NCBI RefSeq assembly: GCF_023156245.1
Contig: NZ_JAKZAH010000003.1
Location: forward strand, 62,001 to 126,000
Direction: 5' to 3'
Length of the DNA: 64,000 nucleotides
From: Marinobacter bryozoorum
Lineage (GTDB): Bacteria; Pseudomonadota; Gammaproteobacteria; Pseudomonadales; Oleiphilaceae
Below, one piece after another: positions 15,509 through 31,050 of the stretch. A program made the position numbers and the translations under genes. Positions within the stretch are counted from its first letter, which is position 1. Each line of letters opens with the position of its first letter. The notes beneath the pieces were generated by a model, which made no database searches, was not told the DNA's origin, and saw nothing but the letters and a program-made list of their open reading frames with translations.

Positions 15509-15564
15509 AGACAGTCCTCACACAGGGCTTTGATGGGGGGCTGGCGTGCCTTCAACCCGTTTTG

Positions 15565-17025
15565 TCACGCCTCGTCCGGGACAATCCCCAGCCGCTGATT
15601 GACGGCATCGCGGATCTCCCGGTAACGATCCGGTTGCCCGATCAAGGTGTCCAGGTCATCTTCGGGAAAGATCTCGCTCTTCTTTTTGCGGGCTTCCTCT
15701 TTGGTGAACACTGAGGGAATCAACTGCTCAAGGCATCGCAGCATCACTTCGGGCGACACCGACGCTCCCGGTGACGCCCCCAAGAGCGTACCGTAGGTTT
15801 TGTCTTCGGAGACAAGGATTTCCGTGCCCATCTGCAGGTCTCCGTCCTTGATGATCTGTACCCGCTGGCCAGCTTCGATTGGCTTCCAGTCAAATTTTGT
15901 GCTCAGGCCCGGCGCAAAGCTGTCGAGCTCTTCGAACATGCTCTTTTCGCCTTTAAACGTCTCCGAAACCAGATACCTCACCAGTGGGAAATGTTCAAAA
16001 AACACACTGAAAAACCCGGGTAGATCGTGGGCACGGATGGATTTCAGGTAATCCAGAAAGCCGCGACCGCGCTCGAGGACCGGTTTGAATGAGGCAAACG
16101 GTCCAAATAACAGGTAGTGCTTGCCCTCCACTACCCGCAAATCCAGGTGCGGGACTGACATGGGAGGCGCGCCCACCTTTGCCTTGCCATAAGTCTTGGC
16201 AGTGTAATATTCCGCCTGCTCCGGGCTGATTGGCGTCTGAAGAAACCGTCCACCCACGGGAAAGCCGGCGAACCGGTTCCTGAACGGCAAATGGCTCTTT
16301 TTCAGTAGCGGAAAAGCGCCCCCGCCGGCACCGACAAAGAGCACATCCGCCTTGTGCTGAACCGGCTTGTCTCCTTGTACCGCTTCGATAAGCCAGCTTC
16401 CAGAGGGGCTTCTGTGCACACGTCTGACGTGGGTGCCGTATTCGAATTTTACGCCAAGGTCATGCTCGGCATGCCTGGCCATGTGCTCGGTTAACGCACC
16501 AAAGTTTACGTCCGTGCCTGTTTCAACGACGGTTGCCGCCATTTTCTCGTGGTGTGGCCGCCCTTCCATGGTATAGGGAATCCAGCTTTTGATTTCGTCG
16601 AAGTCTTCCGAGTAGCGCATCTGCTCAAAAAAATGATGCGCGGACATTTCCTTGAATCTCAGGCGCAGTTCTTCGATGGCGGGTTCCGGAACGATGGTGC
16701 AGTGCCTGGTTTGTCTGATGAAGACACCGGGGTCTTTAATGGCGCCCTTTTCGATCAGGTGAGCCCAGAACTGCTTGGCAACATTGAACTGGGCATGGAT
16801 TTTCAGGGCTTTTTCAACCGCGATGATCTCTCCGTCTACCGGGGTATAGTTGAGCTCACAGTTGGCCTCATGGCCCGTGCCAGCGTTGTTGAAGGCCCAG
16901 GAGTTCCCTGCCCCGGCCCGGTCCAGCCGCTCCAGTATGGTGATATCCAGGTCCGGTGACAGCTCCTTTGCCAGGGTAGCAAAGGTGGTTCCCATGATTC
17001 CGGCGCCGATAACAATGATGTTCAT
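15565..17025 (-). CDS. mqo: Malate:quinone oxidoreductase
   Basis: 486-residue FAD-dependent peripheral membrane enzyme that oxidises malate to oxaloacetate and passes electrons to quinone, replacing or supplementing NAD-malate dehydrogenase in the TCA cycle. The FAD-binding motif VIGAGIMGTTFATL is at 5-18, and the family signature NSWAFNNAGTGHEANCELNYTP follows at about 41-62. GILLGASPGAS-like text near the C-terminus (TLLGASPGASVSPEVML) is also diagnostic. Length agrees with the Mqo family. It stands 56 bases downstream of the selO start on the same strand. Confidence 0.95.
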   Translation of the reverse strand: MNIIVIGAGIMGTTFATLAKELSPDLDITILERLDRAGAGNSWAFNNAGTGHEANCELNYTPVDGEIIAVEKALKIHAQFNVAKQFWAHLIEKGAIKDPGVFIRQTRHCTIVPEPAIEELRLRFKEMSAHHFFEQMRYSEDFDEIKSWIPYTMEGRPHHEKMAATVVETGTDVNFGALTEHMARHAEHDLGVKFEYGTHVRRVHRSPSGSWLIEAVQGDKPVQHKADVLFVGAGGGAFPLLKKSHLPFRNRFAGFPVGGRFLQTPISPEQAEYYTAKTYGKAKVGAPPMSVPHLDLRVVEGKHYLLFGPFASFKPVLERGRGFLDYLKSIRAHDLPGFFSVFFEHFPLVRYLVSETFKGEKSMFEELDSFAPGLSTKFDWKPIEAGQRVQIIKDGDLQMGTEILVSEDKTYGTLLGASPGASVSPEVMLRCLEQLIPSVFTKEEARKKKSEIFPEDDLDTLIGQPDRYREIRDAVNQRLGIVPDEA

Positions 17026-17176
17026 CTGGTTCTGGTCCTGTCCTGGTCGGAAGGGCTACGCAGGTTTGTTTAACGCAGCCAAACGCAACTGGAAAGTTTG
17101 AATGGTTCTCCCTGAGGATAGTTGTTTGGGGCGATAATGCACCATGCTCGCCATTGTCCCGGGCAGGTTCAACGTC

Positions 17177-18331
17177 TCAGGTCAGCCCGAACGGCTCTCC
17201 ATGCTCGGCCCACTCTGAATCCGGCACGATAACGATCTTGCCCAGGTAGCCACTGCCGCGGTTGACGAAATAGTGCTCGGCATCGTGCAGCTTTGACAAA
17301 CGGAAAGTCGCGTGCAGGACGGGTTTGAGCTGGCCGTTGCGGATCCATTCGATCAACTGTTCTGCCTCCTCGCGGGTGCCGTGGGAGACGCCGAATATCT
17401 GGACCTGGTAGAGGTAGATCCGCGTCCACATGATCCCGGTTAGATTGCCGGCGCTGGCGCCTGCGATACTCAGGCGCGGATAGTCCTGTCGCGATGGCAT
17501 ATCAAAGATCATGGCGTCTATGAACTGATTGGTCATCTCGCCACCCGCCAGGTCCATGACGGCGTCGAAAGGTGCTCCGCCGGTCACCGCTTTGACGCGT
17601 TCCTCGAAGTTGTCCATGTGAGAGCGGTCCAGGACGGCCTCGGCGCCCAGTCTTTTCAGGGCCTCGGCCTTGCTTTGCTGGCTCAGGGCGTAGGGTATGG
17701 CCCCCACAATGCGGCAGAGCTGGATCAGAGCCGTGCCCACGCCTCCGCTGGCCCCGGTGACCAGCACGCGTTCGCCTTTTTTGATCCGGGCCGACGTCAT
17801 CATGTGGTAGGCGGTCTGGTAGGAGCACATGCCCATGGACGCCAGCTCGGCATCGGCCAGCTCCGGGTTGGCCACGTGGTGAAACTGATCGGACGGCACT
17901 GCCACATATTCGGCGAAACCGCCATCAGCGCCGTGGCCATAATAGTCCGGTGTCAGGTTGATGCCCCGGCGGTCGTCCGGATACAAGTTAAAATCCAGCA
18001 GGCCTCGTTCGCCGATGCGGGCTTCATCCACGCCCTCACCTACCGCGACCACACGGCCTACGATATCCGCCCCCTGGATTCTGGGGAACGTCAGCGTTGG
18101 CTCGCCGCCCATGGCGAAGGAGGTCACATCGCCCTTGTCCTTGGTGGGGTATAGCCCTTCACGGGCTTTGCGGTCGGTATTGTTCTTGGCGGTTGCCGTC
18201 ACTTTCACCAGAACTTCGCCGCGCCCCGGGGCAGGTGTGGCGGCATCCTCCCTGTAAACCAGTTTTTCGGTCTCGCCATGGCCGGTCAGCACCATGGCCT
18301 TCATGGTTGCCGGGATCGTGTGTTCATTCAT
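17177..18331 (-). CDS. MDR-superfamily NAD(P)H-dependent oxidoreductase
   Basis: 384 residues in the medium-chain dehydrogenase/quinone oxidoreductase fold. The N-terminal GroES-like domain contains GEVLVKVTATAKNNTDRKAREG and the catalytic domain has the Rossmann motif VTGASGGVGTALIQL near 185. The Cys/His/Cys ligands of catalytic zinc in alcohol dehydrogenases and the four structural-zinc cysteines are missing, so a zinc-independent quinone or enone reductase is more likely than an alcohol dehydrogenase. Substrate unknown. It is monocistronic, divergent from fabH. Confidence 0.82.
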   Translation of the reverse strand: MNEHTIPATMKAMVLTGHGETEKLVYREDAATPAPGRGEVLVKVTATAKNNTDRKAREGLYPTKDKGDVTSFAMGGEPTLTFPRIQGADIVGRVVAVGEGVDEARIGERGLLDFNLYPDDRRGINLTPDYYGHGADGGFAEYVAVPSDQFHHVANPELADAELASMGMCSYQTAYHMMTSARIKKGERVLVTGASGGVGTALIQLCRIVGAIPYALSQQSKAEALKRLGAEAVLDRSHMDNFEERVKAVTGGAPFDAVMDLAGGEMTNQFIDAMIFDMPSRQDYPRLSIAGASAGNLTGIMWTRIYLYQVQIFGVSHGTREEAEQLIEWIRNGQLKPVLHATFRLSKLHDAEHYFVNRGSGYLGKIVIVPDSEWAEHGEPFGLT

Positions 18332-18602
18332 GTCGGGGCCCTCCGGTTACGAGTTCCTGAACCCTAAAGGTGCAACTCCGCACCTGCAATGTCGGGAATG
18401 TCATGATACTTGGCCAGCGCCTAAAAGCTCCTGGGGCGGAAACCGCGCGCTCGCCCATGTTCCCGGTTGCCGATTCATCGAAGAAAACGGTGCTCGCGCC
18501 TCTTTGACAAATCGCTAATAACCCCAAATGCTTGATACAGTGTAGGATGCGTTCTTAAACTTCGACTTTTACAACATTTTGCAATCCCGGGAAACGTCAC
18601 GC
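18332..18602. other. Intergenic region between the divergent MDR reductase gene and fabH
   Basis: About 270 bases without a gene. A small hairpin GGTGC/GCACC lies at 18369-18384 and a TTGACA hexamer at 18504-18509, but no well-spaced -10 box follows, so I do not call a promoter. Confidence 0.4.
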
Positions 18603-19571
18603 ATGCCATACGCCAGAATTACCGGCACAGGGTCCTACCTGCCGGAAAATGCCCTGACCAACAAAGACTTGGAAAAAATGGTGGATACCACCGACCAGTG
18701 GATCAGGGAGCGTACCGGCATTTCGCAGCGCCATGTGGCGGCCCCCGATCAGACCACCGTTGACCTGGCCGAAGTCGCTGCCCGGCGAGCCGCCGAAGCG
18801 GCTGGGGTTGAGCTGCAGGACATCGACCTGATTGTCTTTGCGACCTCGACACCTGACAAGATCTTCCCCAGCTGCGCGTGCATCCTGCAGGCCCGTCTTG
18901 GCATTCAGGGGTGCCCGGCGTTCGATATCCAGGCGGTCTGCAGCGGGTTTGTCTATGCCCTGTCAGTGGCAGATAAATTCGTTCGCACGGGCAGCAGCCG
19001 CAAGGCTCTGGTGGTTGGTGCAGAGGTCTTTTCCCGAATCGTCAACTGGGAAGACCGGGGCACCTGCGTGTTGTTTGGTGACGGGGCTGGAGCCGTGATC
19101 CTGGAGGCGGACGAAGAAACCGGTATTCTGTCTACCCATATCCACGCAGACGGCCAGTATGAAGAGTTGCTCCACGTGCCCTGCGGGATCGCCTCCAACT
19201 ACGACCAGGTCAAGGCCGGCAAGGCCTTTATCGAGATGAAGGGTAACGAGGTTTTCAAGGTTGCGGTCAACACCCTCGGCAAGATTGTTGACGAAACCCT
19301 GGCCGCCAACCAGATGGAAAAGTCAGACATCGACTGGCTGGTGCCCCACCAGGCCAACCTGAGGATCATTGCTGCGACCGCGAAGAAACTGAACATGTCC
19401 ATGGACCAGGTAGTGGTTACTGTGGATCAGCACGGCAATACCTCGGCGGCCTCCATACCCCTGGCCCTGGATGTTGCCGTGCGTGACGGCCGCATCAAGC
19501 GCAATGAAGTGGTTCTTCTGGAAGCCTTCGGCGGCGGCTTCACCTGGGGATCAGCCCTGCTGAGGTTCTGA
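18603..19571 (+). CDS. fabH: Beta-ketoacyl-ACP synthase III
   Basis: 322 residues, the normal FabH length. It condenses acetyl-CoA with malonyl-ACP to start fatty acid synthesis. The catalytic triad is Cys113 (AVCSGF), His249 (PHQANLRI) and Asn279 (HGNTSAAS). The N-terminus ([15 protein letters not shown]) aligns with E. coli FabH, which supports the ATG at 18603 over a TTG eight codons upstream. It stands alone, away from any plsX-fabD-fabG-acpP cluster, so it may be a second, dedicated FabH with different acyl specificity; this is inference. Confidence 0.95.
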
Positions 19572-19599
19572 GCCCCCGGCGTTCCGCCTTTCCAGTTGG

Positions 19600-19626
19600 A
19601 TAACCGGCATCAGCGCAGCCGGTTAT
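19600..19626. terminator. Hairpin between convergent fabH and DUF2789 gene
   Basis: A perfect 9-bp stem, ATAACCGGC (19600-19608) with GCCGGTTAT (19618-19626), around a 9-base loop. It overlaps the 3' end of the DUF2789 coding sequence and lies 29 bases after the fabH stop. No U-tract follows on either strand, so termination strength is doubtful. Confidence 0.4.
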
Positions 19627-19840
19627 TCAGGGTGTCCACCAGTTCTGCCCAGTCTGCATCTTCCTCCCATTCCTCCTTCAGGAAATGGCGCTGGCTTTCG
19701 TTCCAGAAAGGTGCGTCTGGCAGCCGTGTGCCCTCTGGCAATGGTCGATGTTCCGCAATAAAGGCTTCAATGGCATCGCTATCACTGGGCAACCCCAACT
19801 GCTCAAACAGTTCTGACAATGTGTGAACCGGTTTTTCCAT
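19610..19840 (-). CDS. DUF2789 family small protein
   Basis: 76 residues from ATG 19840: MEKPVHTLSELFEQLGLPSD begins a helix-rich, acidic protein ending in WAELVDTLNNRLR. This is the typical length and opening of the DUF2789 family (PF10982-like), found singly in Pseudomonas and relatives. No function is known. The frame is open further upstream, but homology begins at this ATG, with GAGGTCCTCATG giving a close ribosome site. Converges on fabH. Confidence 0.85.
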   Translation of the reverse strand: MEKPVHTLSELFEQLGLPSDSDAIEAFIAEHRPLPEGTRLPDAPFWNESQRHFLKEEWEEDADWAELVDTLNNRLR

Positions 19841-20027
19841 GAGGACCTCGTTGCAGTGAAAGTAAGTGGTGGCAAGGAGTCTGCGGCGGGAGCTTCTATC
19901 GCCGGAGTTCCTGATGCTGACCTGAAGTATAGAACGACTTTCAGGGTATGACCCATGACCTTGAATTAATGAATCGATCATAGGATGATTGCCTCCCCAG
20001 CCTTATCGCCTTGGAGGAGCCTGAGGC

Positions 20028-21032
20028 ATGAAATTCCGCCTCGATACCTTCACTTTGCTACTTCTGGGCGCCATCGTGCTGGCGACCTTCCTGCCCGTGA
20101 GAGGGAGTGCTGCGGAGGCTCTATCCGTGGCCGGTACGGTCGCAGTTGCCCTGCTTTTCTTTCTTCATGGCGCAGCCCTGTCGCGGCAACAGATCATCGA
20201 CGGTGCGACCCACTGGCGCCTGCACATTATTATCACTGCCTTCACCTTTGTCTTCTTTCCCCTGATGGTGCTGCCCGTCAATGCACTGAGTGGCATTGCT
20301 CCCCGATGGATGCCTGAAGACCTGGGGTTGGGTTTTCTCTATCTCGGGGTCCTGCCCTCAGCGGTATCGTCGTCCATCGCCTACACGGCAATGGCGCGCG
20401 GTAATGTCCCTGCAGCGATCTGCAGTGCGGCTGCCTCCAACGTATTCGGTATGATGCTCACGCCTTTCCTGCTGATCCTGCTGGTCAGTACCTCAGGTGG
20501 CGGCAGTTTTTCGGTACTCGAAGCACTGAAGGATATCGTGGTGCAGTTGCTGTTGCCCTTTGCAGTCGGACATGCCATGCGCCCCTGGCTGGGTGGCTTT
20601 CTGGCACGTCACGAAAACCTCGCGTCACGGTATGACCAGTGCGTAATCTGGCTGATCGTTTACTCGGCGTTCTCCCATTCCGTGGTGAGCGGACTGTGGG
20701 AGAACTTGCCGCTAACCGCTATCGGGCTGACTATCGTGCTGTGCTTTGCCCTGCTGGGGTTCTTTATGCTTGTGGCGCACCTGCTGGTACGACGCTTCGG
20801 GTTCAGCCTGGAGGACGAGGCGGCCGTGGTATTTTGCGGTTCGAAGAAAAGCCTGGCGTCGGGATTGCCCATGGCCAAGGTGCTGTTTTCCGGTCACCCG
20901 GGGTTTGGCATGATCGTGCTGCCCATCATGTGCTACAACCAGATACAGGTCATCGTCGGGGCCATGCTGGCACAGCGCTACCGCCGGCTTATTGAGGCGG
21001 CAAATGAACCGGCAGCCGCCGGCAAACCCTGA
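20028..21032 (+). CDS. Bile acid:sodium symporter-family transporter (SBF-like)
   Basis: 334-residue polytopic membrane protein with about nine or ten hydrophobic helices (first near 9-25). Conserved patterns include FLHGAALSRQQIIDG, the LGFLYLGVLPSAVSSSIAYTAMARGN crossover with the broken helix, and FCGSKKSLASGLPMAK in the second half, as in YfeH-type members of the SBF/DUF4137 family. It is predicted to import an organic anion with sodium at the inner membrane; the substrate is unknown. GGAGG-like AGGAGC precedes the ATG by about ten bases. Confidence 0.9.
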   Translation: MKFRLDTFTLLLLGAIVLATFLPVRGSAAEALSVAGTVAVALLFFLHGAALSRQQIIDGATHWRLHIIITAFTFVFFPLMVLPVNALSGIAPRWMPEDLGLGFLYLGVLPSAVSSSIAYTAMARGNVPAAICSAAASNVFGMMLTPFLLILLVSTSGGGSFSVLEALKDIVVQLLLPFAVGHAMRPWLGGFLARHENLASRYDQCVIWLIVYSAFSHSVVSGLWENLPLTAIGLTIVLCFALLGFFMLVAHLLVRRFGFSLEDEAAVVFCGSKKSLASGLPMAKVLFSGHPGFGMIVLPIMCYNQIQVIVGAMLAQRYRRLIEAANEPAAAGKP

Positions 21033-21061
21033 GTTGGGGCAGCCCCTGGCTAACCGCTGGC

Positions 21062-21784
21062 TCAGCCGCCTCCCCCGGTCAGCGCACCGAACAGGCTCGT
21101 AAGGATAATAATACCCACAATCCAGCCGAGAACCGCAGGCCAGAAGTTTGTCATCTGGGGACGTTCCTGTTGCGCATTGTCGTCGCCATGATCAGCGGGA
21201 AAGCTGATGCCCTGATAGCGGCCGGCATCGTCGAGTGCAACATCACCCTCTTCCTGCCGGTCCAGGGCGTCTGTCATGCCATACCAGCCGAACCAGTCGC
21301 CCAGGAAGCGTGCCACCGGTGCCGGCAGGCGGGATTCATCGGCAAGGGGGCGAAGTCGTGGTTCCAGCTCAACGCCGATGGCGGCCCGCACATGGTCCTG
21401 GTCCGCCGGCGGTTCTGTCAGGATGGCTCGCCAGATCGCCACATCCTGGGACCGGACATGGTCATTAAGCATGGCATTAACCTGGATGACCACTTCCCGG
21501 ACGACTTGTTGCTCGCTGCCAGACAGGGGCGCGCTGCGTGACTCCGCCTGCCAGCCGGAAGCCTCGTTGCCAGGGGGCTCTTGCGGTTGTTGCTGCGCCT
21601 CACCTGCGGACACGGGGCCAGCAGTGGACACCGGGTGCCCGGCCTCTTCCATAGCGTTGTGATAGGCTGCTTCCAGCCGCCGGGCCTCTTCTCCCTCAGC
21701 AAACTTGCTTTGCTGCTCGAAAGCCTCCCGGATCCGGGCGTTATCGCGGGTTGGCTCAATGCCCAGTATTTCCCAACAGTTCAT
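21062..21784 (-). CDS. Degenerate J-domain-like, tail-anchored membrane protein
   Basis: 240 residues. The opening CWEILGIEPTRDNARIREAFEQQ resembles helices I and II of a DnaJ domain, but the HPD tripeptide that activates Hsp70 ATPase is absent (the loop reads SKFAEGEE). A Gln/Pro/Ser-rich linker follows (about 50-90), then an uncharacterised helical region (about 90-175) and one C-terminal membrane helix (about 212-235, FWPAVLGWIVGIIILTSLFG), leaving the bulk in the cytoplasm. The function is not known; it may be a co-chaperone relative that has lost Hsp70 coupling. Divergent from the TonB receptor gene. Confidence 0.7.
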   Translation of the reverse strand: MNCWEILGIEPTRDNARIREAFEQQSKFAEGEEARRLEAAYHNAMEEAGHPVSTAGPVSAGEAQQQPQEPPGNEASGWQAESRSAPLSGSEQQVVREVVIQVNAMLNDHVRSQDVAIWRAILTEPPADQDHVRAAIGVELEPRLRPLADESRLPAPVARFLGDWFGWYGMTDALDRQEEGDVALDDAGRYQGISFPADHGDDNAQQERPQMTNFWPAVLGWIVGIIILTSLFGALTGGGG

Positions 21785-21896
21785 GAATCACGGTGCTCCT
21801 GGTTGCAGGCGGCTGACTTTCCGATATCATGCCAATTCCTGAGCTAATCTTAAAACAATATTCATCAGGCTCGTCTCCGGTAAGGCCCTAATTACC

Positions 21897-24038
21897 ATGA
21901 ACCACAAACTTGGCAACGCTAGCCCACCGGTCAAACCAGCTGGTTTGATGCTTGTGCTCGGCCTTGGCCTGGCCTTGTCCTCACCACAGGCTGGTGCCAG
22001 TGAATCCGAAGTGCCGCCCTGGCTCGCACTAGGCGAAACGGACGTGCCAGAAGGCGGCTATAGCGCTGTTCCCGAAGTCCTCACCACTGCCAGGCTACGC
22101 CAGCCCAAAGCCCGGGTGCCAGGCACCACCACTGTCATTTCCGGCGAGACCATCCGCGATCTCGGTATGGTTTCGCTGGCCGATGTGTTTCGCCTGGTGC
22201 CGGGCATGACAGTGGCCGCCGTTGAGAGCAATCAGCCAACGGTGAGCTATCACGGCACCGTAGCCTATGAACAGCGGCGGCTGCAGGTTCTGATTGATGG
22301 GCGTACCGGGTACCTGCCCAGCCTTGCGGACGTTGACTGGAATGCCATGCCGGTTCCCATAGAACTGATTGATCGCGTCGAAATCAGCCGGGGGCCCAAC
22401 TCCGCCGCCTATGGCAACAACGCGTTCCTGGCGTCCATCAATATTATTACAATGTCGCCGGAGAATACGGCAGGCACCGGTCTGCACGTCCAGGGTGGTG
22501 GTCCCGGTATTCGCAACTATACCGCCTACCACGGCCGTACCCGGGACGATTACAGCTGGCGGGTTGCCTGGCACCGCAAGGAGTCGGACGGATTCGATTT
22601 TCAATACGACACCGGCAGTCAGCTGCGCAAGGCACCGATTCGGGATGGTTTCGAATTCAATCAATTCTATTATGACGGGGTTGTACAGCCCTCCCCCCAG
22701 CACTCTCTCGAGCTCCGCGCCGGTATAGTTGACGGCATTGACCAGGATGACCCGATAAAGATTGGTTCAGACCTGGGCATTCAGAACAACCCGGACGACG
22801 AAGTCCGGGATTATTATCTGCAGGCGACCTATGGTTTCAGCGGACTGGATAAACACCTGATCGAATTCCAGACCAGCTACCAGCGGTACAACCGTGACAA
22901 GGACTGGATCAGCTGCATCGAGCTCGGAGGCACCCCTGCTCCCATGTGCGCCAGGCTCAATGAGGATCTCAATCAGCACCGGCTGGAGTTCGAGCTCCAG
23001 GATACCTGGGAGATCAATCCCGATCTGAGACTGGTCAGTGGCCTGGGCTATCGGGAAGATGGCTACGAATCTGAAACCTATTTCGGGGGAAGTGGCAACA
23101 TTTACCAGTCCCGCCTTTTTGCAAACCTGGAATATACGCCGCTTTACTGGCTGACCTTCAACGCTGGCGCGAACTACGAACATACCTCGCTGATGGACGA
23201 CAGCTTCCTGTCCCCCCGGCTCGCTACCAACCTGCACCTGACCGAGAACCAGTCCCTGCGCTTTGTCTACTCACGGGCGGTCCGTACTCCCGACGCCCTG
23301 GAACAACGTGCAGACTGGGCGTACACCCCGAGAAACGTCAGCCCGTCAATCTACAGCGACCTCGAAGGCCAGCGCATCGATGAGGAGTTTGACTCCGTCA
23401 GCCCGGTAGACTTTTCAAGCTACTATACAGAAGCTCCCGGTGATCTGGATGAGGAACGGATTACCAGCAGGGAAATCAGCTATTACGGCCAGTTCCGTCT
23501 GGGAAGTGGCGTGGTTTCCACCGAAATTCGATACTTCTATGACGAGCTCAGGGACCTGGTAGCAGGCATTATCAATATCGAAGACTATGACCTTGGAAAT
23601 CGCGTCGCCATCGACCAGCAGGGTATAGAGTTGGAAACCGCACTGGACCTGGGTGACACACGGCTTCGGTTGACCTACGGTTACATGGACCAGGAAGGGT
23701 GGTACACCGCCAATGACGGGCTGTCGCCCGACGAGCAACAGGAGACCGTAGCCCGCGAAGGCCGGTTATCGGTTCGTCACACGGGCAGTCTGGCCTGGAT
23801 CCAGCGTTATTCCAATGACTGGAGTTCAGCCGTTGCCTGGTATGTCGCTGATGAATTCCGCAGTGGCCCTTACCAACGGGCCGATCTGCGCTTAGCGAAA
23901 ACCGTGCACGGCCCCAGGGTGAGCTATGATATAGCCCTGATTATGCATCACTACCTCAATGACAACCCTTTGTTGAGCAGAGACAACAACTACAGGGATC
24001 GCAACCAGTTCTTCCTCGAAGCCGGTGTCCGTTTCTGA
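21897..24038 (+). CDS. TonB-dependent outer-membrane receptor
   Basis: 713 residues with a signal peptide ending near ASPQAGAS (about residue 37), a plug domain at about 75-190 (TTVISGETIRDLGMVSLADV, then RGPNSAAYGNNAF) and a C-terminal 22-stranded barrel closing with FFLEAGVRF, the terminal Phe expected for outer-membrane insertion. It takes a ligand such as an iron or metal chelate into the periplasm using TonB energy. No Fur box is evident upstream. The next two genes, a periplasmic binding protein and a hybrid kinase, follow with 25-base spacing and then overlap, so the ligand may be sensed rather than only imported. The ligand is unknown. Confidence 0.9.
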   Translation: MNHKLGNASPPVKPAGLMLVLGLGLALSSPQAGASESEVPPWLALGETDVPEGGYSAVPEVLTTARLRQPKARVPGTTTVISGETIRDLGMVSLADVFRLVPGMTVAAVESNQPTVSYHGTVAYEQRRLQVLIDGRTGYLPSLADVDWNAMPVPIELIDRVEISRGPNSAAYGNNAFLASINIITMSPENTAGTGLHVQGGGPGIRNYTAYHGRTRDDYSWRVAWHRKESDGFDFQYDTGSQLRKAPIRDGFEFNQFYYDGVVQPSPQHSLELRAGIVDGIDQDDPIKIGSDLGIQNNPDDEVRDYYLQATYGFSGLDKHLIEFQTSYQRYNRDKDWISCIELGGTPAPMCARLNEDLNQHRLEFELQDTWEINPDLRLVSGLGYREDGYESETYFGGSGNIYQSRLFANLEYTPLYWLTFNAGANYEHTSLMDDSFLSPRLATNLHLTENQSLRFVYSRAVRTPDALEQRADWAYTPRNVSPSIYSDLEGQRIDEEFDSVSPVDFSSYYTEAPGDLDEERITSREISYYGQFRLGSGVVSTEIRYFYDELRDLVAGIINIEDYDLGNRVAIDQQGIELETALDLGDTRLRLTYGYMDQEGWYTANDGLSPDEQQETVAREGRLSVRHTGSLAWIQRYSNDWSSAVAWYVADEFRSGPYQRADLRLAKTVHGPRVSYDIALIMHHYLNDNPLLSRDNNYRDRNQFFLEAGVRF

Positions 24039-24063
24039 CGAACCGCCTTTCAGGAAACTGATA

Positions 24064-25050
24064 ATGACCAGGATGGGTATGGGTAGCTGTATTTCCCGCA
24101 AAGCCAGAAAAGTACGCCGCGCCGGTTTGCTCCCCGATTGGGGACTGGCGTTCGTCCTGCTTTTGGTGATGCCGCTTGCCCTTTTGGCGCAACCGCTCAA
24201 CGCCGATGTGGTCTATCTGCAGGGATCGGCCAACCCCACCTTCAACCTGCGATTCACCGAACTGCTGCAGCAGCAACTCGGGCCTGAGACGGAGGTGCGC
24301 AGGTTTTCGTCTCTGCAGACGTTCGAGGGGCCGCCCGGACCGGTCATCACACTGGGTCAGGAGGCACTGACCCGGGTGCTGGAAGCCAGCACACAAAGGC
24401 AGGTACTCGCACTGTTGATTGATTCGGACACACTCGCGGGGGTGGCCGAGAATTCCGGAATCGCGATATCTACCATCTGGTACGATCCGCCACTGCTTCG
24501 TCAGGCCCTCATTGGCCGGACTATCCTCCCCCAGGCCAGCCGGATGGCCTTGCTGGCCCGCCCGGGTGACGCCGGTCGATACGAACCGCTGCTGGATGAA
24601 CTGGCAGACTATGGTATCGAGGCACGGGTGTTCCTGGTGACGGGGGACGACTCACTGATTCCGACCCTGTCGCGGGCACTGAGCTTTGGCGATTTCCTGC
24701 TGGCGACACCGGACGATGCCATCTACAACCCCCGCACGATCAAACATATCCTGTTGACGACCTATCGACGTAACCGGCTCGTTATAGGCCCCAGCCATGC
24801 TTTTATCAGGGCTGGCGTGCTTGCCTCCTCCTATGTACCGCTGCCGGACTACGCCGCCAGGGCAGCACAGTATGTCCGGGAATGGCAACGTACCGGAAAC
24901 CTCCCCGAACCGTCCTACCCGGATAGCTTCAGCATTGAGATCAACCGGCAGGTTGCCAGGTCCCTTAACCTGCCCCTGCCGGACCGGGAGCAGATCGTGG
25001 AAGAAGTCCGTGCCCTACTCCGGCAGTCGACAATGGAGGTGCGGCCATGA
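24064..25050 (+). CDS. Periplasmic ABC_sub_bind-family protein
   Basis: 328 residues from ATG 24064, which has AGGAA seven bases upstream; an in-frame GTG at 24025 overlaps the receptor gene and is less likely. A hydrophobic segment (about 19-42, LAFVLLLVMPLALLAQPLNA) is a signal peptide or anchor. The rest has the type-1 periplasmic-binding fold with VITLGQEALTRVL, SQASRMALLARPGDA-like and FLLATPDDAIYNPRTIKHIL, matching the ABC_sub_bind (PF04392-like) family. No ABC permease is nearby. The stop overlaps the histidine kinase start (ATGA), suggesting that it presents a ligand to that kinase. Confidence 0.82.
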   Translation: MTRMGMGSCISRKARKVRRAGLLPDWGLAFVLLLVMPLALLAQPLNADVVYLQGSANPTFNLRFTELLQQQLGPETEVRRFSSLQTFEGPPGPVITLGQEALTRVLEASTQRQVLALLIDSDTLAGVAENSGIAISTIWYDPPLLRQALIGRTILPQASRMALLARPGDAGRYEPLLDELADYGIEARVFLVTGDDSLIPTLSRALSFGDFLLATPDDAIYNPRTIKHILLTTYRRNRLVIGPSHAFIRAGVLASSYVPLPDYAARAAQYVREWQRTGNLPEPSYPDSFSIEINRQVARSLNLPLPDREQIVEEVRALLRQSTMEVRP

Positions 25051-27008
25051 GGCAACGCACCGCCAAGAGGAGCCTGGCCAACCAGTTGCTGTTATTGGGT
25101 GCCCTGCCCGCCGTTTTGATGTTTATCGGGCTGATGGTGTTTTTCACCCATGCCCGCCTGACAGATGCCCGCCAGGAGCTTTTCGATTCCACCCAGGTTT
25201 TGGTTGATAACCTTGCCCCGGCCATGGAGTACGCCGTCGTTTCCGGAAACCTTGAAGTCCTCGAAGACCTGCTCAGCCAGGCCAGCAGCCGCACCAGCCT
25301 GGAATGGATCCGGGTTACCGATGTGGTTGGCAACCAGATGGCGTTTGTGGGTAGCGAGCGCTTCAGCGAGTGGCCCGGCGCCGACCAACAGCAAGAGGGT
25401 ATTCACCGATTCAGTTCCGATATCCTGCAGTTACCCGTGACCCTGGGCAGTGCCAGTGAAGACTGGTTCGAGCCGGACTACCGGGTGTCCGGCGGGGCCA
25501 TGCGGGTAGGAACGGTAGAGGTTGCAGTTAGTGAGCAGCGTCTGACCGAAAGGCGCGGTGATATCCTGCTTACCTCCGGTGTGGTCGGTATATCACTGCT
25601 GGTTTTTGCCCTCCTGCTGATTTACCGCCTTACGGCGACCCTCCTGGAGCCCATGCAAACACTTGCTGACCGGGTCATGGCCATGACCCGCAGGGATTAC
25701 CGGGAAAGTCCCCCGGTGGGCACCCGGGTCGCCGAGTTTGCCCAGCTGGAAGATAACCTGAACCAGCTGGCCCGCAACCTGGGGAACCTGCAGGAATCAC
25801 GGGACCAGACCCTTGCCCTTTCGGAAAGCGCCCGTGAAAAAGCCGAACAGGCCAGCCAGGCCAAGACCGAATTCCTTGCAGTGATGAGCCACGAGTTACG
25901 CACACCACTGAACGGCATGCTGGCAATGGTAGACCTGGTTTCCGAGCAGCCGCTGACTGGCCGCCAGGCGGATTACCTGAACACTGCCCGGCGCTCCACT
26001 GAAGACCTGTTGACCCTTATTAACGACATCCTGGATGTTTCCCGCCTGGATCAGGGCACATTGTTACTGCAATCACGTCCGTTCAACCCCAGGGAACTGG
26101 CAGAGAACTGCATGGCCAGTTTCCGGCATGCGGCCGAGCAACACGGCCTGCAGCTGGCACTGGAGCTTTCGGGGAACTGGCCGGACGAGCCCGAGGTGGC
26201 GGGTGACGCAGTACGGTATCGACAGGTACTGGCCAACCTGCTCGACAACGCCATCAAGTTCTCGGATCAGGGTGTCATCAGGGTGACCATGGACTGGCAC
26301 CTGGAGGCTGATGATTGTGTCTTTATCACGTGCGAAGTAGAAGATAATGGACATGGCATTGCGCCGGAACAGCTGGAGCAGGTATTCAACAGTTTTGAGC
26401 AACTGGACTCATCCCATTCGCGGACTACCGACGGAACCGGCATCGGGCTTACCCTGGTTCAGAAGCTGGTAGAGCTGATGGGAGGCCATATCAGCCTGGC
26501 CAGTGACTTCCAGGAGGGCTCCAGTTTTCGCTTTGAAGTGCCTTTTGAGCTTATTCGTCATGCGCAGGGCAGCCAGCCCGAATCACCGCAGGGCCAACCA
26601 ACGCCCCAGGAAGGGGTGGAACGGCAAACTCCGCGGGCGCTGGTGGTGGAGGATAACCCGGTTAACCAGCGAGTGGCACGCACCCTGCTCGACCGCCTCG
26701 GATTTGACACCGCAGCCGTGACAAACGGGCGTGAGGCGGTCGAGTCCGTTACCTGCACCGACACGCCGTTTACCGTCATCCTGATGGACTGCCATATGCC
26801 TGTCATGGACGGCTTTGCCGCTGCCCAGGCCATTCGGGAATGGGAGCGCCAGGAAGAACAGCACCAGATTCCGATTATTGCCCTGACAGCGGATGCGTTA
26901 CCGGGTACGGAAAAAAGCTGCCTGGAAGCGGGAATGAACGATTACCTGTCCAAGCCCGTCCGTAAGGAGCAGCTCAGGAGCGTACTGAGTCGCTGGGTGC
27001 CGCTTTAA
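25047..27008 (+). CDS. Hybrid sensor histidine kinase/response regulator
   Basis: 653-residue inner-membrane kinase. Order: membrane helix (about 12-34), periplasmic sensor (about 35-170), second helix (about 173-195), HAMP (about 196-250), HisKA with His282 ([11 protein letters not shown]), HATPase with the N box (NLLDNAIKF), G1 DNGHGI and G2 GTGIGL, then a receiver with phosphoacceptor Asp581 ([11 protein letters not shown]) and Lys near SKPVRKEQL. No Hpt domain or DNA-binding output is encoded, so a separate Hpt protein or regulator must receive the phosphate. It overlaps the upstream binding-protein gene by 4 nt (ATGA); the first ORF of the module is the TonB receptor. Confidence 0.93.
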
Positions 27009-27041
27009 CCCCGGGTCGGTTACCCGTACCTGTCGAACGAT

Positions 27042-28403
27042 TTATGCCACCGGTGTACGCATGGTGACAAACTCCTCAGCCGATGTCGGGTGAATTCCGA
27101 GGGTGCTGTCGAAGTCTGCCTTGGTCGCACCACATTTCAGGGCCACGCCCAGGCCCTGGGTGATTTCACCGGCATCTGCGCCAACCATATGCGCGCCCAA
27201 CACCCGGTCATCATCCGCGTCCACTACCAGTTTCATCAGGCTGCGTTCATCACGACCGCTGAGGGTATGTTTCATCGGCCGGAACTCGGAGCGGTAAATC
27301 ACGACCCGGTGTCCGGCTTCCTTCGCTTCTGCTTCCGTCAGGCCCACGGTGCCGATATTCGGCTGGCAGAAAACCGCTGTCGGGATGTTGCGATAGTCCA
27401 TCTCCCCCTGACCATCACCAAAGAGACGTCGGGAGAGCACCATCGCCTGGGCCAGTGCAACCGGAGTCAGTTGTGGTGTGCCAATGACGTCACCGAGCGC
27501 AGTGATGGAAGGCACGGCCGTCTGGAAATATTCGTCGACCTGGACATGGCCGCTGGTTGTGAATTCCACGCCCAGTGTTTCAAGGTTCAGGCCATCGGTC
27601 AGTGCCCGGCGTCCTGTAGCCGCCATCACCAGGCCCGTTTCCATCACACTGCCGTCCGACAGGGTCACTGCATATCCGCTGCCAGACTCTTCGACCGCAG
27701 TGATATTGCTGTTGAACCGCAGGCGAATGCCCTTTTTCTCCAGCTCGGTAACGAGGAAACGACGAACGTCGTCATCAAAGCCGCGAAGGAACAGTTCTCC
27801 CCGGTAAATCAGGGTGGTCTCTACCCCAAGACCGGCGAGAATGCCTGCAAACTCCACGGCGATATAACCACCGCCCCAGATGACCGCCTCGCGGGGCAAC
27901 TGCGGCAGATAGAACATCTCGTTGGAAGAGAGCACCAGCTCACGCCCGGGCACATCGGGAATCGAAGGCCAGCTGCCGGTGGCTATGGTGATGCGGTCTG
28001 TGGTCAGTTCCCGGTCACCCACCACGACGGTGTTGGGATCACGCAACGACGCGGTTCCCTGGATAACCGTTACACCTGCACCCTCGAGCAGTTGACCGTA
28101 GATGCCGTTCAGTCGCTCGATCTCGGCGTTCTTGTTGGCGACCAGGGTGGGCCAGTCAAAGCGCACGTCGGAACGTGGCACCTGCCAGCCATACCCGGCT
28201 GCATCTTCCAGGTCTTCGCCGACATGGGCACCGTAGACAAACAGTTTCTTGGGTACGCAACCTACGTTGACACAGGTACCACCCAGGTACCGTGACTCGA
28301 CTACCGCCACCCGCGCGCCCTGCTGGGCGGACATGCGGGCAAGGCGAACACCGCCGGAACCGGCGCCAATAACGATCAGATCATAATCCCGGGATTCAGA
28401 CAC
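27042..28403 (-). CDS. gor: Glutathione-disulfide reductase
   Basis: 453-residue flavoprotein that reduces oxidised glutathione with NADPH in the cytoplasm. The redox-active disulfide is Cys44/Cys49 ([13 protein letters not shown]), FAD motif [11 protein letters not shown] at 10-20 and the NADPH domain motif [17 protein letters not shown] near 178. The C-terminal catalytic pair is His438 and Glu443 (IHPTSAEE). Length and motifs match Gor rather than lipoamide or mercuric reductase. On the same strand as, and 58 bases downstream of, a GNAT gene. Confidence 0.95.
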
Positions 28404-28461
28404 GTGGACTCCTGTTCAACTTGATCAAAACAGACCGGTCAGCCGCCTGAAACCGACAGGA

Positions 28462-29148
28462 TCAGGAGGCCTGGAAGCCAGCCTTCGTGGATGCAACGTC
28501 CCCATCCCTGAACAGTACAAAATCCTCATAGTCCCCCAACCGGATGGTACCCAGGCTACGGAACCCTTCCGATTCATAGAAAGGCAGGTAACGGCTATTG
28601 CCGGTATCCAGCACCAGGCCGCTACCTTGCGGGTTTTCCGAACACAGTGCCTCGACTGAGGCCAGCAAGCGGCGACCAAAACCGCGATTCTGGTATTTCG
28701 GGTGAACCCCCATCAGTGGCAACTGATAGGTGCCCTCTGTCGGCAACATGTTGCGGATCTTTTCATGGTAATCAAGGTAACGCCGGGTAGAAGCGAAGCC
28801 TGCAGTCAATACCATGCGCAGTCGCCAGCTAAGCTGTTCAGCAAGGTTAAGCCGCAGCTCGGGCGCACCTATAAATGCCACCGCCACCAGGGTCTCGTCT
28901 GCCATGACGCCGATGGCATCCTGGTTGAGTTCGAAATAGAGATTAAGCAATTCACGGATAGTTGCACGAACCCGTTTATCATACCCGGGCTTGCGATGAT
29001 CGAACAGGTACTGAAAGGTGGGCTCGTGCCGGTACGCCTGGTAGAGAATCGACTTGGCCTCGTTAAAGGCGGTGTCGTCCAGCCGCACAATGGAAGGTTC
29101 CCGGGCGATCTTGTTATCGTTGTCTGCCGTTGTCATACCTTCTGCCAT
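28462..29148 (-). CDS. GNAT family N-acetyltransferase
   Basis: 228 residues with a GNAT fold, opening at REPSIVRLDDTAFNEAKSIL. The acetyl-CoA motif A is LMGVHPKYQNRGFGRRLLA (about 144-162), with the Gln/Arg-x-x-Gly-x-Gly/Ala pattern, followed by VLDTGNSRYLPFYESEGF, the C-terminal motif common to this family. The acceptor substrate is not known. It lies in the same direction as the T2SS operon, 73 bases beyond gspM, with no obvious link to secretion. The start at ATG 29148 is the first with good context (AAGGTATG-like sequence further upstream). Confidence 0.85.
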   Translation of the reverse strand: MAEGMTTADNDNKIAREPSIVRLDDTAFNEAKSILYQAYRHEPTFQYLFDHRKPGYDKRVRATIRELLNLYFELNQDAIGVMADETLVAVAFIGAPELRLNLAEQLSWRLRMVLTAGFASTRRYLDYHEKIRNMLPTEGTYQLPLMGVHPKYQNRGFGRRLLASVEALCSENPQGSGLVLDTGNSRYLPFYESEGFRSLGTIRLGDYEDFVLFRDGDVASTKAGFQAS

Positions 29149-29221
29149 CGAAAGGCTCCCCTTCGGTTAGCGTTATGCCGCCGATAACGGCGTCTTTTCA
29201 GTTACTTTCCCTCATTAATCC

Positions 29222-29749
29222 TCAGATTGCCAGTGTCAGTCGCACAGACACGACACCCGGCGCGCCCCGCCGGTCCATGGCTGCCTGCTCGATCAGTATG
29301 CCGTGATCGCTGCTTAGTCCTTCAAGCCACTGGGCGACCTGGCCAAAAGGCACATCTTCAAGCCAGACCCGGATCGAATCGTCACCGCTGGGTTCAAAGC
29401 GCTGCAAATCGAGGCCGGCTTCCCGGGCAGTGCCGGTAACGGTCGCCATCAGCTCACGGCCATTCTCCGGCTTGTTGGCCGCACTGGTCCCGGTGGTACC
29501 GCCGTCGCTCAGACCCCGGATGACCTCCCGGTTCTGCTGCATCCATGCCAGCAATTCACTGGCATTGGTCCGGGCGCTTACGGCCTGGTCATGGTAGCTT
29601 GCCACCGGGCGCCAGATGGCAAAATAAACCAGTGCCAGCAACAACGCCACAACCATAAACTTGAGGGCCTGCTGATCCCGCCGTGGAAGCTGGTCATAGC
29701 GAGTGATGAGTCGTGTTACGGACGGGTTTTCCCTGAGTTTACGAAGCAC
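29222..29749 (-). CDS. gspM: Type II secretion inner-membrane protein GspM
   Basis: 175 residues, last gene of the gsp operon. One membrane helix (about 28-47, KFMVVALLLALVYFAIW) follows a short cytoplasmic N-terminus; the periplasmic part has the ferredoxin-like fold expected of GspM, ending VSVRLTLAI. It partners GspL and GspC in the assembly platform. It starts with GTG at 29749, two bases after the gspL stop. GspM is poorly conserved, so identification depends on position and topology. Confidence 0.85.
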   Translation of the reverse strand: MLRKLRENPSVTRLITRYDQLPRRDQQALKFMVVALLLALVYFAIWRPVASYHDQAVSARTNASELLAWMQQNREVIRGLSDGGTTGTSAANKPENGRELMATVTGTAREAGLDLQRFEPSGDDSIRVWLEDVPFGQVAQWLEGLSSDHGILIEQAAMDRRGAPGVVSVRLTLAI

Positions 29750-29751
29750 GG

Positions 29752-31050
29752 TTAGCCCCCTGATACGGTAAGACGGGCGCGGGTACCGTCAGAATCGTTG
29801 ACCACCGAACCAATACTCGCGTCCAGCCCCTGGTCGGCAATCCCTGAACGTAGCGCATTGAGCCGTTCGTAGCTGTCTGCGCGCACATCTACCACCAGCT
29901 CGCCCCGGGAACTGGTGTAATTAACCGAGTTGAACAGGACCGACTGACCACCTGTTAGCCGGCTGTATTGTTGCCCCGTGTGTTTCATTAACGGCAGGAA
30001 GCCGGCATCACCACCTTGCTGGCCCGCCACCCGGAGTTGTCCTTCGATAATCCGGCGAACGTTTCGGGGCGAAGCGCGCCGGTCATCCGGAAACGCCTGC
30101 CGGTATATTGCCATAGCCTGCTCTTCCAGGGCCGTAGCTTGTTGTTGATGGTAATAGCCCATTCCCAGCTTGGCACCGACCAACAGCACCAACCAGGCCG
30201 CAGCGATGGCTATTGCCGGTCGCCAGGCGGTCAGCGCACTGCCCCCGGCCTGGCCCGGCGCATAGCTGCCCTGGCACAGGTTGATGGGATCAGTTGCATG
30301 GTGATAGTGGGCACTGGCGAGCAGTTCAGTAATGTTCCCTTCCATAGGCTCGCGATGCACGCTCAGTCGGGACGTTCCGGCCAGGGCGGATAACGCAGGT
30401 TCGTTAGCGGCGAAGGCGGACTCGGTACCATAAACCACAACCTGCACCTCGGCTGCTACTTCGTCCGCCGAGGGAACGGCGAGGGTCTGGGCGAAGACCG
30501 CCAGGTTCTCTGCTTTCATGGTCATCCACTCGCCCCGCCGTGAGGCCAGCAAGGCGGCGTCTTCACCAAGGCAGATTGCCCAGTCATGCTCTTTCAGGGG
30601 TACCAGGGCTGCATCCGGGTAGATGGCTTCGAGCTCAATGCCTTCCCAGTCCAGAAAGCCTTCCCGCCACAAAGCCATGCGCTGCTGGTCGATGGCGGCG
30701 ACGCGGTAGCCGTCTCCGGTTAGCCCGCCCAGGGCCAGGTGAACCGTATCGACGTCCTGGGCCAACTGCTCTTCAACCGCAAACGGTAAGGCCTGGCGGA
30801 TAAACCGCGCCTGTTTGGCTGGAATATCCGCAAAACAGAACAGGGCCTCATCACCGGGGACCAGGCCGACCAGGCGCACGCCTTCAAGGGAGTTTCGACT
30901 GACCGCATCCTCGATGCTTTCCCTGCCCTCGGCCTGGCCACTGGCCTGCAGTTCGCCACTGGCGTCCAGCAGCACCCAGTCCAGTCTCAGCTCCCCGCCG
31001 GAAGGGGCCGGGCTGCCGGCCACCGGCCTTGCATAAAGGTGATATGACAT
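29752..31050 (-). CDS. gspL: Type II secretion inner-membrane protein GspL
   Basis: 432 residues with a cytoplasmic actin-like (ASKHA) domain at about 1-270, one transmembrane helix at about 279-300 and a periplasmic ferredoxin-like domain. The cytoplasmic part recruits the GspE ATPase; the segment FIRQALPFAVEEQLAQDVDT is typical of GspL. It lies between gspK and gspM in the canonical order with minimal spacing. It is expected to couple ATP hydrolysis to pseudopilus assembly. Confidence 0.92.
   Translation of the reverse strand: MSYHLYARPVAGSPAPSGGELRLDWVLLDASGELQASGQAEGRESIEDAVSRNSLEGVRLVGLVPGDEALFCFADIPAKQARFIRQALPFAVEEQLAQDVDTVHLALGGLTGDGYRVAAIDQQRMALWREGFLDWEGIELEAIYPDAALVPLKEHDWAICLGEDAALLASRRGEWMTMKAENLAVFAQTLAVPSADEVAAEVQVVVYGTESAFAANEPALSALAGTSRLSVHREPMEGNITELLASAHYHHATDPINLCQGSYAPGQAGGSALTAWRPAIAIAAAWLVLLVGAKLGMGYYHQQQATALEEQAMAIYRQAFPDDRRASPRNVRRIIEGQLRVAGQQGGDAGFLPLMKHTGQQYSRLTGGQSVLFNSVNYTSSRGELVVDVRADSYERLNALRSGIADQGLDASIGSVVNDSDGTRARLTVSGG

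Follow-up and report, generated by a model that had tools for sequence, protein, structure and literature searches.

The window, a stretch of 64,000 nucleotides of the Marinobacter bryozoorum genome, carries on its + strand three genes encoding a TonB-dependent receptor (21897..24038, 713 aa), a periplasmic binding protein (24064..25050, 328 aa) and a hybrid sensor histidine kinase (25047..27008, 653 aa), which raises the question whether these genes take up a ligand or detect it. Both ORF coordinates and DNA confirmed the same-strand spacing of 25 bases and then a 4-nt overlap given by the sequence-only reading: the stop codon of the receptor occupies 24036-24038, the ATG of the binding protein follows 25 bases on at 24064, and the binding protein and kinase overlap in the ATGA at 25047-25050. 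With an alternative GTG start at 24025, the binding-protein gene would overlap the receptor. No ABC permease or ATPase adjoining the three genes was found in the ORF list and Pfam matches of the window, as had also been claimed; the neighbours belong to other families, namely SBF_like, glutathione reductase and GNAT by Pfam and, assigned by eye, a J-domain-like protein and further on gsp genes. The three genes are predicted to form a transport-coupled sensory operon spanning the envelope, a reading we consider probable. Iron or vitamin regulation was dropped as a hint to the ligand, since positions 15000-30000 gave no Rfam match and 162 module receptors showed no Fur-box signal around their starts (best match averaging 10.7/19 vs 10.4 in shuffles).

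The receptor contains a Plug domain (about 22107-22424, + strand, Pfam PF07715, E 1.9e-17) and a TonB barrel (about 22677-23900, + strand, PF00593, E 4.2e-16), both above cut-off, which identifies it as a TonB-dependent receptor. An STN signalling domain, as expected of a FecA-type transducer, was not among its Pfam hits at E<=0.1. When receptors of distant modules were compared with the window genome, that of L152, a class-level locus, matched the window receptor with 183.7 bits (next best place 54.3) and that of a Massilia plasmid with 133.8 bits (next best place 49.9). By these similarity scores, the module receptor is judged to be a specific, co-inherited lineage. The best NCBIfam match of the window receptor was the TOL_0244 alkane receptor family (NF053590), at 121.4 bits against a cut-off of 645 bits. 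The available part of PMC6304351 describes induction of the TOL_0244 receptor on long alkanes in Thalassolituus; the alkane link was rejected because, in the order sample, NF053590 is listed at places other than the module's.

The binding protein has a hydrophobic N-terminal signal/anchor helix, with no lipobox recognised by eye. Its assignment to the ABC_sub_bind proteins, made previously, is not borne out by its own sequence: no Pfam family matched at E<=0.1, the curated PF04392 score was not reached, and a PF04392 search of the window's own genome did not find it at E<=0.001. The label did hold through relatives, profile and fold. PF04392 matched 10 out of 27 relatives at E<=1 (best 7.8e-5) and five of six paralogues (best 1.1e-14), and the binding-protein profile A1 found 3lft at 1.4e-7, while the narrower profile A3 gave no match at E<=0.01. 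The fold model (pLDDT 89.0, pTM 0.81) had as its top five PDB matches in Foldseek 3lft (two chains), 3lkv, 6hnj and 6hni, with scores of 1.6e-12 (TMt 0.53) for 3lft, 1.5e-11 (0.52) for 3lkv and 2.1e-9 (0.71) for 6hnj, which points to a TrpX/CD0873-type fold. Of these nearest solved relatives, 3lft carries L-Trp according to its title, and CD0873 binds tyrosine. Judged by its relatives, the profiles and this confident model, the protein belongs with the ABC_sub_bind proteins, remotely.

In the kinase, a predicted sCache_4-like periplasmic sensor region (25149..25541, about residues 35-165, borders inferred from the model) precedes HAMP (25629..25781, PF00672), HisKA (25860..26057, PF00512, E 3.9e-21), HATPase_c (26202..26549, PF02518, E 1.4e-28) and receiver (26640..26984, PF00072, E 1.4e-23) domains, all on the + strand. 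In the window kinase sCache_4 scored below cut-off (17.8 bits, E 0.003); it was found in 26 of 58 relatives at E<=0.01 and above cut-off in distant loci. HAMP scored 25.2 bits (cut-off 25) with the N-terminal kinase piece and 23.7 with the full protein. The best NCBIfam match was BarA (NF008318, residues 7-510), with 392.8 bits, below the 890-bit cut-off for membership. Among the named kinase orthologues (best 80 of 175 loci), 11 of 80 lack the receiver, with ORFs of 494-526 aa (L198, L203, L215, L221, L236, L245, L254, L255, L257, L260 and L261).

Relatives were searched by the binding protein alone, ignoring the other two genes, in a family set of 163 genomes and in samples of the order (390 genomes) and the class (369). 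They were present in 139 genomes of the family, in 135 of the order sample (46/142 genera) and in 77 of the class sample (63/272 genera). In 143 opened loci, partners were counted as a same-strand TonB gene and a membrane sensor within 3.5 kb of the binding protein. Of the 143 loci, 123 had both on the strand of the binding protein (family 61/63, order 32/40, class 30/40), and because these loci had been found by the binding protein alone, the co-occurrence of the three genes is not due to chance. The named loci, the best 80 of 175, were obtained by an alignment search of genome contigs, after which matches appeared that a scan with the single binding protein did not give; many share genomes with the family set, and all 80 contain both partners in the same order. 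That the three families constitute one recurrent module, as proposed from the sequence, was therefore corroborated.

Conservation within the family is largely that of one syntenic block including glutathione reductase, GNAT and gsp genes. The genes might be co-regulated envelope genes that synteny and operon structure keep adjacent, without signalling to one another, and conservation of the block as a whole fits such an explanation. So does the weak excess of co-evolution over flanking controls: in a mirror-tree test with 52 loci, to which we attach little weight, partial r beyond these controls was 0.26 for binding protein and sensor, 0.25 for binding protein and kinase core and 0.40 for binding protein and TonB receptor, the value for the sensor being no higher than that for the kinase core. 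This explanation is nevertheless improbable in view of a plasmid copy, of outputs that change and of reordered copies within the same genus (L069, L070, L072 and L073). The order binding protein-kinase-TonB occurs in these four loci and in L107, L123 and L130, and the order binding protein-TonB-kinase in L120. A mobilizable Massilia plasmid carries a whole copy (RR-Rce1-TonB-SBP-HK), showing the portability of the module; its kinase is of the HisKA_3 type with HAMP, and sCache_4 was not recognised in it. The output also changes, as an sCache_4-HAMP-PAS-GGDEF-EAL protein replaces the kinase in L155, L160, L167 and L175. In a binding-protein tree made by a quick method, 6 changes of the TonB side and 3 of the output were counted; with 35 of its 93 inner branches open, the tree is poorly resolved and these changes are therefore only indications. 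Frames of up to 699 aa around some class-level matches were rejected as fusion proteins: in the five loci opened to check this (L143-L147) each of the three proteins has a frame of its own, overlapping the others, so the extra length is an out-of-frame extension.

Separability of the genes in relatives, which the sequence-only reading had held to speak against it, does occur and is rare. A sensor accompanies the binding protein in 136 of the 143 opened loci and a same-strand TonB gene in 128 (123 with a sensor, 5 without one recognised, one of the latter cut by a contig end); two loci have neither partner. Thirteen loci, including L092, L093 and L175, have binding protein and sensor with no same-strand TonB gene within 3.5 kb; at least two of them are cut by contig ends and two have a TonB gene nearby. 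A Teredinibacter plasmid copy shows the binding protein and a large response-regulator protein, and no TonB gene is annotated within 6 kb of it. These TonB-less loci are what would be expected if the sensor proper had two parts, binding protein and kinase, with the TonB receptor as an optional supplier, often co-encoded, which overlaps the explanation preferred here and differs from it in the part given to the receptor. We regard this as a real, if less probable, possibility: the same-strand TonB gene is present in most opened loci and in all 80 named loci (best 80 of 175), and the receptor appears to belong to a specific co-inherited lineage.

Binding proteins of the ABC_sub_bind fold usually serve ABC importers, and L096 and L132 are such importers. 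The three genes could be an operon for uptake that includes its regulator: receptor and binding protein would supply a nutrient for an importer elsewhere, while the kinase does its own sensing and only controls the uptake genes. Genes for permease and ATPase may lie away from that of the binding protein, and the permease search covered the ABC_sub_bind type. Within that scope, only L096 among the 143 opened loci gave a permease match, a weak one, so the earlier expectation that no such permease goes with the module was upheld; across all loci, including the 143 and the best 80 of 175, L132, the separate importer of the window genome, was the only addition. Nine further loci contained distant ATPase-like frames (28-35% identity), most of them a long way from the module. 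In the window, permease and ATPase are not encoded with the binding protein. A permease partner encoded elsewhere, which would have told against the sequence-only reading, did not emerge either: the genome's one PF04392 binding protein and one close permease of this type share one complete SBP-permease-ATPase operon. Together with the regular company of sensor and binding protein, this makes the uptake operon an unlikely explanation.

As for the output, the kinase had been described as lacking one and needing an Hpt or regulator elsewhere. The first part stood, with no Hpt in the window kinase at E<=0.1 (Pfam); for the second, some relatives of the module have a fused Hpt or a nearby NarL-type regulator, while the fetched flanks of the named loci (best 80 of 175) contained no NarL-type regulator. 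A module-regulator model, built from 7 of the regulators that were then counted, was used, and the best matches of module regulators in the window genome were C33:58861 and C116:34551, followed by C50:138370. By eye their neighbours were acetyl-CoA synthetase-like, aldehyde-dehydrogenase-like and a UvrC-like frame, respectively, and none of the three is clearly the partner. Another protein of the window genome, a 961-aa frame on C33, combines sCache_4 (74.9 bits) with Hpt.

In the sensory operon, the TonB receptor would use inner-membrane energy to bring the ligand through the outer membrane, and the soluble binding protein would catch it on the periplasmic side. Once loaded (or while empty), this protein may act directly on the sCache_4-like sensor domain and so switch the kinase through HAMP; we infer the flow of ligand, the direct contact and the direction of switching. 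Phosphate of the window kinase would have to pass to an Hpt or regulator encoded away from the operon, whereas some relatives have a fused Hpt, a nearby NarL-type regulator or a GGDEF-EAL output. Since no dedicated inner-membrane importer was found, receptor and binding protein may serve detection and not (or not only) uptake; the cassette recurs in many related bacteria without an adjoining matching importer and so resembles a sensing route that crosses every layer of the envelope.

Annotation usually treats TonB receptors as importers of nutrients and regards binding proteins as components of importers. The chances seem evenly balanced that these loci represent a widespread, hitherto undescribed class of envelope-spanning sensors in Gamma- and Betaproteobacteria. 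Its input unit would consist of a receptor powered by TonB and an orphan binding protein, both devoted to sensing, together with a mostly sCache-like HAMP sensor, and would be plugged into a hybrid kinase, a HisKA_3 kinase with NarL-type regulator or GGDEF-EAL. If so, many such TonB/binding-protein annotations in Gammaproteobacteria would be sensory, and there would be a direct route to the ligands, the binding protein being soluble and kinase or c-di-GMP activity giving a readable output. Since the input parts are common to loci that differ in output, the module would also provide natural chimeras for studying how signals pass from a periplasmic protein through an sCache-HAMP domain.

No description of the triad was found in titles and abstract openings of the open-licence papers that the searches listed, nor is such an operon described in the available parts of PMC8880074 and PMC7689651. 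The best match of the window kinase, BarA/GacS, is similar in its sCache_4 type of sensor; the window kinase differs in scoring far below the BarA cut-off and in the missing Hpt. In LuxP-LuxQ and TorT-TorS, a periplasmic binding protein of another family is encoded with a hybrid kinase and without its own permease, and those operons are not known to include a TonB receptor. The window shares this pairing with no adjoining permease, as in CuaDSR, but its kinase lacks an Hpt and carries an sCache_4-like sensor, and a TonB receptor is added. NspS-MbaA, a binding protein of another family with a GGDEF-EAL protein and no known TonB receptor, resembles the GGDEF-EAL variants of the module. FecA-type TonB transducers, which signal with sigma/anti-sigma factors, likewise show a TonB receptor taking part in signalling, whereas the window receptor has no STN and is paired with a kinase, the soluble protein standing between the two. 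According to the accessible part of PMC10384115, CuaD-CuaS-CuaR is a three-component system of Ruminiclostridium cellulolyticum controlling a cellobiose importer, in which a second, non-importer solute-binding protein, encoded beside sensor and regulator, binds the sensor and sharpens the sensitivity of sensing. This resembles the non-importer binding protein encoded with a sensor in the window; as far as that part goes, the Cua kinase is not described as hybrid, and there is no TonB receptor because the organism belongs to another phylum with another envelope. On these comparisons, the triad is best read as a probable variant of binding-protein-dependent three-component sensing of the LuxPQ and CuaDSR kind, to which a TonB receptor has been added.

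Three consecutive genes of the window, all on the + strand, make up the module in the 4.26 Mb genome of Marinobacter bryozoorum. They encode a TonB-dependent receptor (window 21897-24038; Plug and barrel by Pfam), an exported periplasmic binding protein (SBP) of 328 aa (window 24064-25050; ORF read from the DNA) and a hybrid kinase (HK) of 653 aa (window 25047-27008; HAMP, HisKA, HATPase_c and receiver by Pfam). The flanks hold an SBF_like transporter gene and, convergent with the trio, glutathione reductase and GNAT genes (all by Pfam), together with gsp genes and a divergent gene for a J-domain-like protein next to the receptor (window 21062-21784), both recognized by eye. These flanking genes include no ABC permease or ATPase, and the ORFs, the DNA and Pfam all bear out the sequence-only reading of three adjoining same-strand genes without such a neighbour. 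The J-domain-like protein had no Pfam family above the cut-off; across the 60 loci L032-L091 it was matched in 40. Further along, a 960-aa hybrid kinase of MHYT-PAS-HisKA-REC-Hpt look (window 54804-58678; Hpt by search, the rest by eye) overlaps a 331-aa receiver protein of REC-HD-GYP look (by eye).

Relatives were searched for with the binding protein alone, so that its partners were not selected for. They were present in 139 of 163 family genomes, 135 of 390 genomes of the order sample and 77 of 369 of the class sample. From the family 63 loci were opened. Outside the genus there were 22 carrier genomes, of which 20 contributed their main place; 37 places were picked from the genus, and six were places of secondary matches (five in the genus, one outside). 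Forty loci each from the order (38 genomes, 20 families) and the class (39 genomes) were hand-picked for spread. To detect partners, models were made from receptors and kinases of the family itself; a frame, whether longer than 300 aa or short, counted as a sensor when it matched either the sensor part or the core of the kinase. A same-strand TonB receptor and sensor lay within 3.5 kb of the binding protein in 61/63 family, 32/40 order and 30/40 class loci, i.e. 123 of 143 in total, and the expected co-occurrence of the three families was thereby found. Their inseparability held in these loci but not in five with the receptor only (L103, L104, L122, L180, L182), 13 with the sensor only (L041, L092, L093, L121, L131, L151, L159, L164, L166, L168, L174, L175, L178) and two with neither (L071, L096). 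Among these, contig ends truncate L041, L121 and L122, the receptor of L131 is on the opposite strand, that of L178 lies 3.9 kb from the binding-protein gene, and L096 is a true importer operon with a borderline match. L103 and L104, with TonB and binding protein and without kinase, have a NarL-type regulator nearby, in L104 after an acetyl-CoA synthetase-like gene (by eye). Receptor, binding-protein or kinase frames were in pieces in L083, L088, L089, L195 and L243, through decay or sequencing error.

Gene order was compared as well. TonB-SBP-HK with both partners was seen in 80/80 of the best 80 of 175 named loci (many in genomes that also contributed to the family set), but eight other loci are reordered: SBP-HK-TonB in second copies in the same genus (L069, L070, L072, L073) and in L107, L123 and L130, and SBP-TonB-HK in L120. 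In 124/136 loci the frames of binding protein and sensor abut or overlap, a count inflated by placing each start at the furthest upstream start codon. At L114:7998-9875 a tandem pair of binding-protein genes lies between kinase and receptor, and five order genomes (G263, G290, G334, G354, G447) have two binding-protein places close together.

Within the family the trio lies in one conserved block, and this alone could explain its persistence there. Five results go further than synteny: order, plasmid copy, output, receptor lineage and permease absence. A mobilizable plasmid of the betaproteobacterium Massilia sp. WG5 (NZ_CP012641.2, record 134155-140364) holds a complete regulator-Rce1 peptidase-TonB-SBP-kinase copy; its binding protein matched the profile with probability 99.8, and its kinase is HAMP-HisKA_3, with no sCache_4 recognized by Pfam. 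The module receptor is a specific lineage: the receptors of a class locus (L152) and of this plasmid both found the window receptor best in the window genome (183.7 bits, next place 54.3; and 133.8 bits, next place 49.9). In L155, L160, L167 and L175 the same operon layout has sCache_4-HAMP-PAS-GGDEF-EAL at the kinase position; of these four, L175 has no TonB gene nearby. Plasmid NZ_CP060093.1 of Teredinibacter purpureus carries a distant binding protein directly before a large response-regulator protein, and no annotated TonB gene lies within 6 kb, which counts against the trio reading. The Rce1-like membrane peptidase gene is also found inside a family genome's second copy (L074:5367-6155) and is a possible fourth module part.

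A partner permease encoded elsewhere would speak against a module without transporter. The one PF04392 protein found in the window genome precedes a permease (BPD_transp_2) and an ATPase, so the permease of this type sits with its own binding protein; the PF04392 search did not pick up the window binding protein. Since a search with this permease returned itself and one weak match (26% identity), no orphan permease of this importer's type, to which the search was limited, awaits the window protein. Importer permeases of the family's type were found in just two loci, L096 and the separate importer that the window genome encodes (L132). Nine more loci had distant ATPase-like frames (28-35% identity), mostly well away from the module.

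The label ABC_sub_bind proved right by fold and remote by sequence, because Pfam misses the protein while relatives, profile and fold model match. The nearest named relatives are from Marinobacter species (74% identity in M. segnicrescens), and no Pfam family was found at E<=0.1. PF04392 touched 10 of 27 relatives at E<=1 (best 7.8e-5) and 5 of 6 distant paralogues from the same bacterial family (best 1.1e-14), the two groups being homologous by profile comparison (probability 99.9). The profile of the 27 relatives found the solved tryptophan-binding protein 3lft (E 1.4e-7); a narrower Marinobacter-group profile gave no match at E<=0.01. The fold model was confident (pLDDT 89.0, pTM 0.81), and its top five solved matches were two chains of 3lft, 3lkv and two CD0873 structures, all of which we take to be ABC_sub_bind-type proteins.

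For the output, an Hpt or regulator encoded elsewhere had been proposed. This agrees with the C-terminal receiver of the window kinase and with relatives that carry such parts, but the partner itself is only guessed. Three of ten scanned kinases of relatives end in Hpt (L108, L149, L171), and none was found in the other seven. NarL-type regulators, detected with a model built from seven of them and some lying several kb off, were present within the fetched locus in 12/40 order, 7/40 class and 4/63 family loci, the last four being second copies; Pfam also bore out REC and GerE in L069, L110, L120, L122, L163 and the Massilia plasmid. The Marinobacter branch looks like a reduced form with its partner encoded elsewhere, because that model found none in the fetched flanks of the best 80 of 175 named loci, and the receiver is lost from 11 of the 80 kinases there, which end after the ATPase domain (L198, L203, L215, L221, L236, L245, L254, L255, L257, L260, L261). 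Several window-genome proteins have Hpt domains, one sharing a 961-aa frame with sCache_4 on contig C33; this BarA-like protein, or a GacA-like regulator, is our guess for the output partner.

In the window kinase sCache_4 stayed below the cut-off (E 0.003), was detected in 26/58 relatives at E<=0.01 and was above the cut-off in distant loci. The model of residues 1-260 was middling (pLDDT 81.4, pTM 0.56) and matched two solved entries at E<=0.001, one a WalK-YycH model, the other a LapD orthologue's periplasmic domain; CitA sensor domains ranked next. The LapD periplasmic domain acts on a periplasmic protein; the modelled likeness would fit a binding protein that acts on the sensor and proves nothing. 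We favour, with moderate confidence, a mechanism in which the receptor would import a ligand, the binding protein would capture it and would then act on the sCache-HAMP sensor. Direct contact and ligand flow are its weakest steps. What speaks for them is genome comparison and a co-evolution signal that is weak: over 52 loci the partial r of the binding protein was 0.26 with the sensor, 0.25 with the kinase core and 0.40 with the receptor. The sensor accompanies the binding protein in 136/143 loci and the receptor in 128/143, which suggests a core of binding protein and sensor; the receptor is read as a nearly constant supplier because some loci have no nearby TonB gene.

TonB receptors take part in signalling as FecA-type transducers, which have an STN domain, whereas the Pfam scan found none in the window receptor. 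LuxP-LuxQ, TorT-TorS and NspS-MbaA are examples of binding-protein-dependent sensing, which as such is already known. In a three-component system, CuaD binds the kinase CuaS (PMC10384115). No description of a receptor, an orphan binding protein and a sensor in one operon was found in the accessible portion of the open-licence literature, and within that literature it is this combination that appears new.
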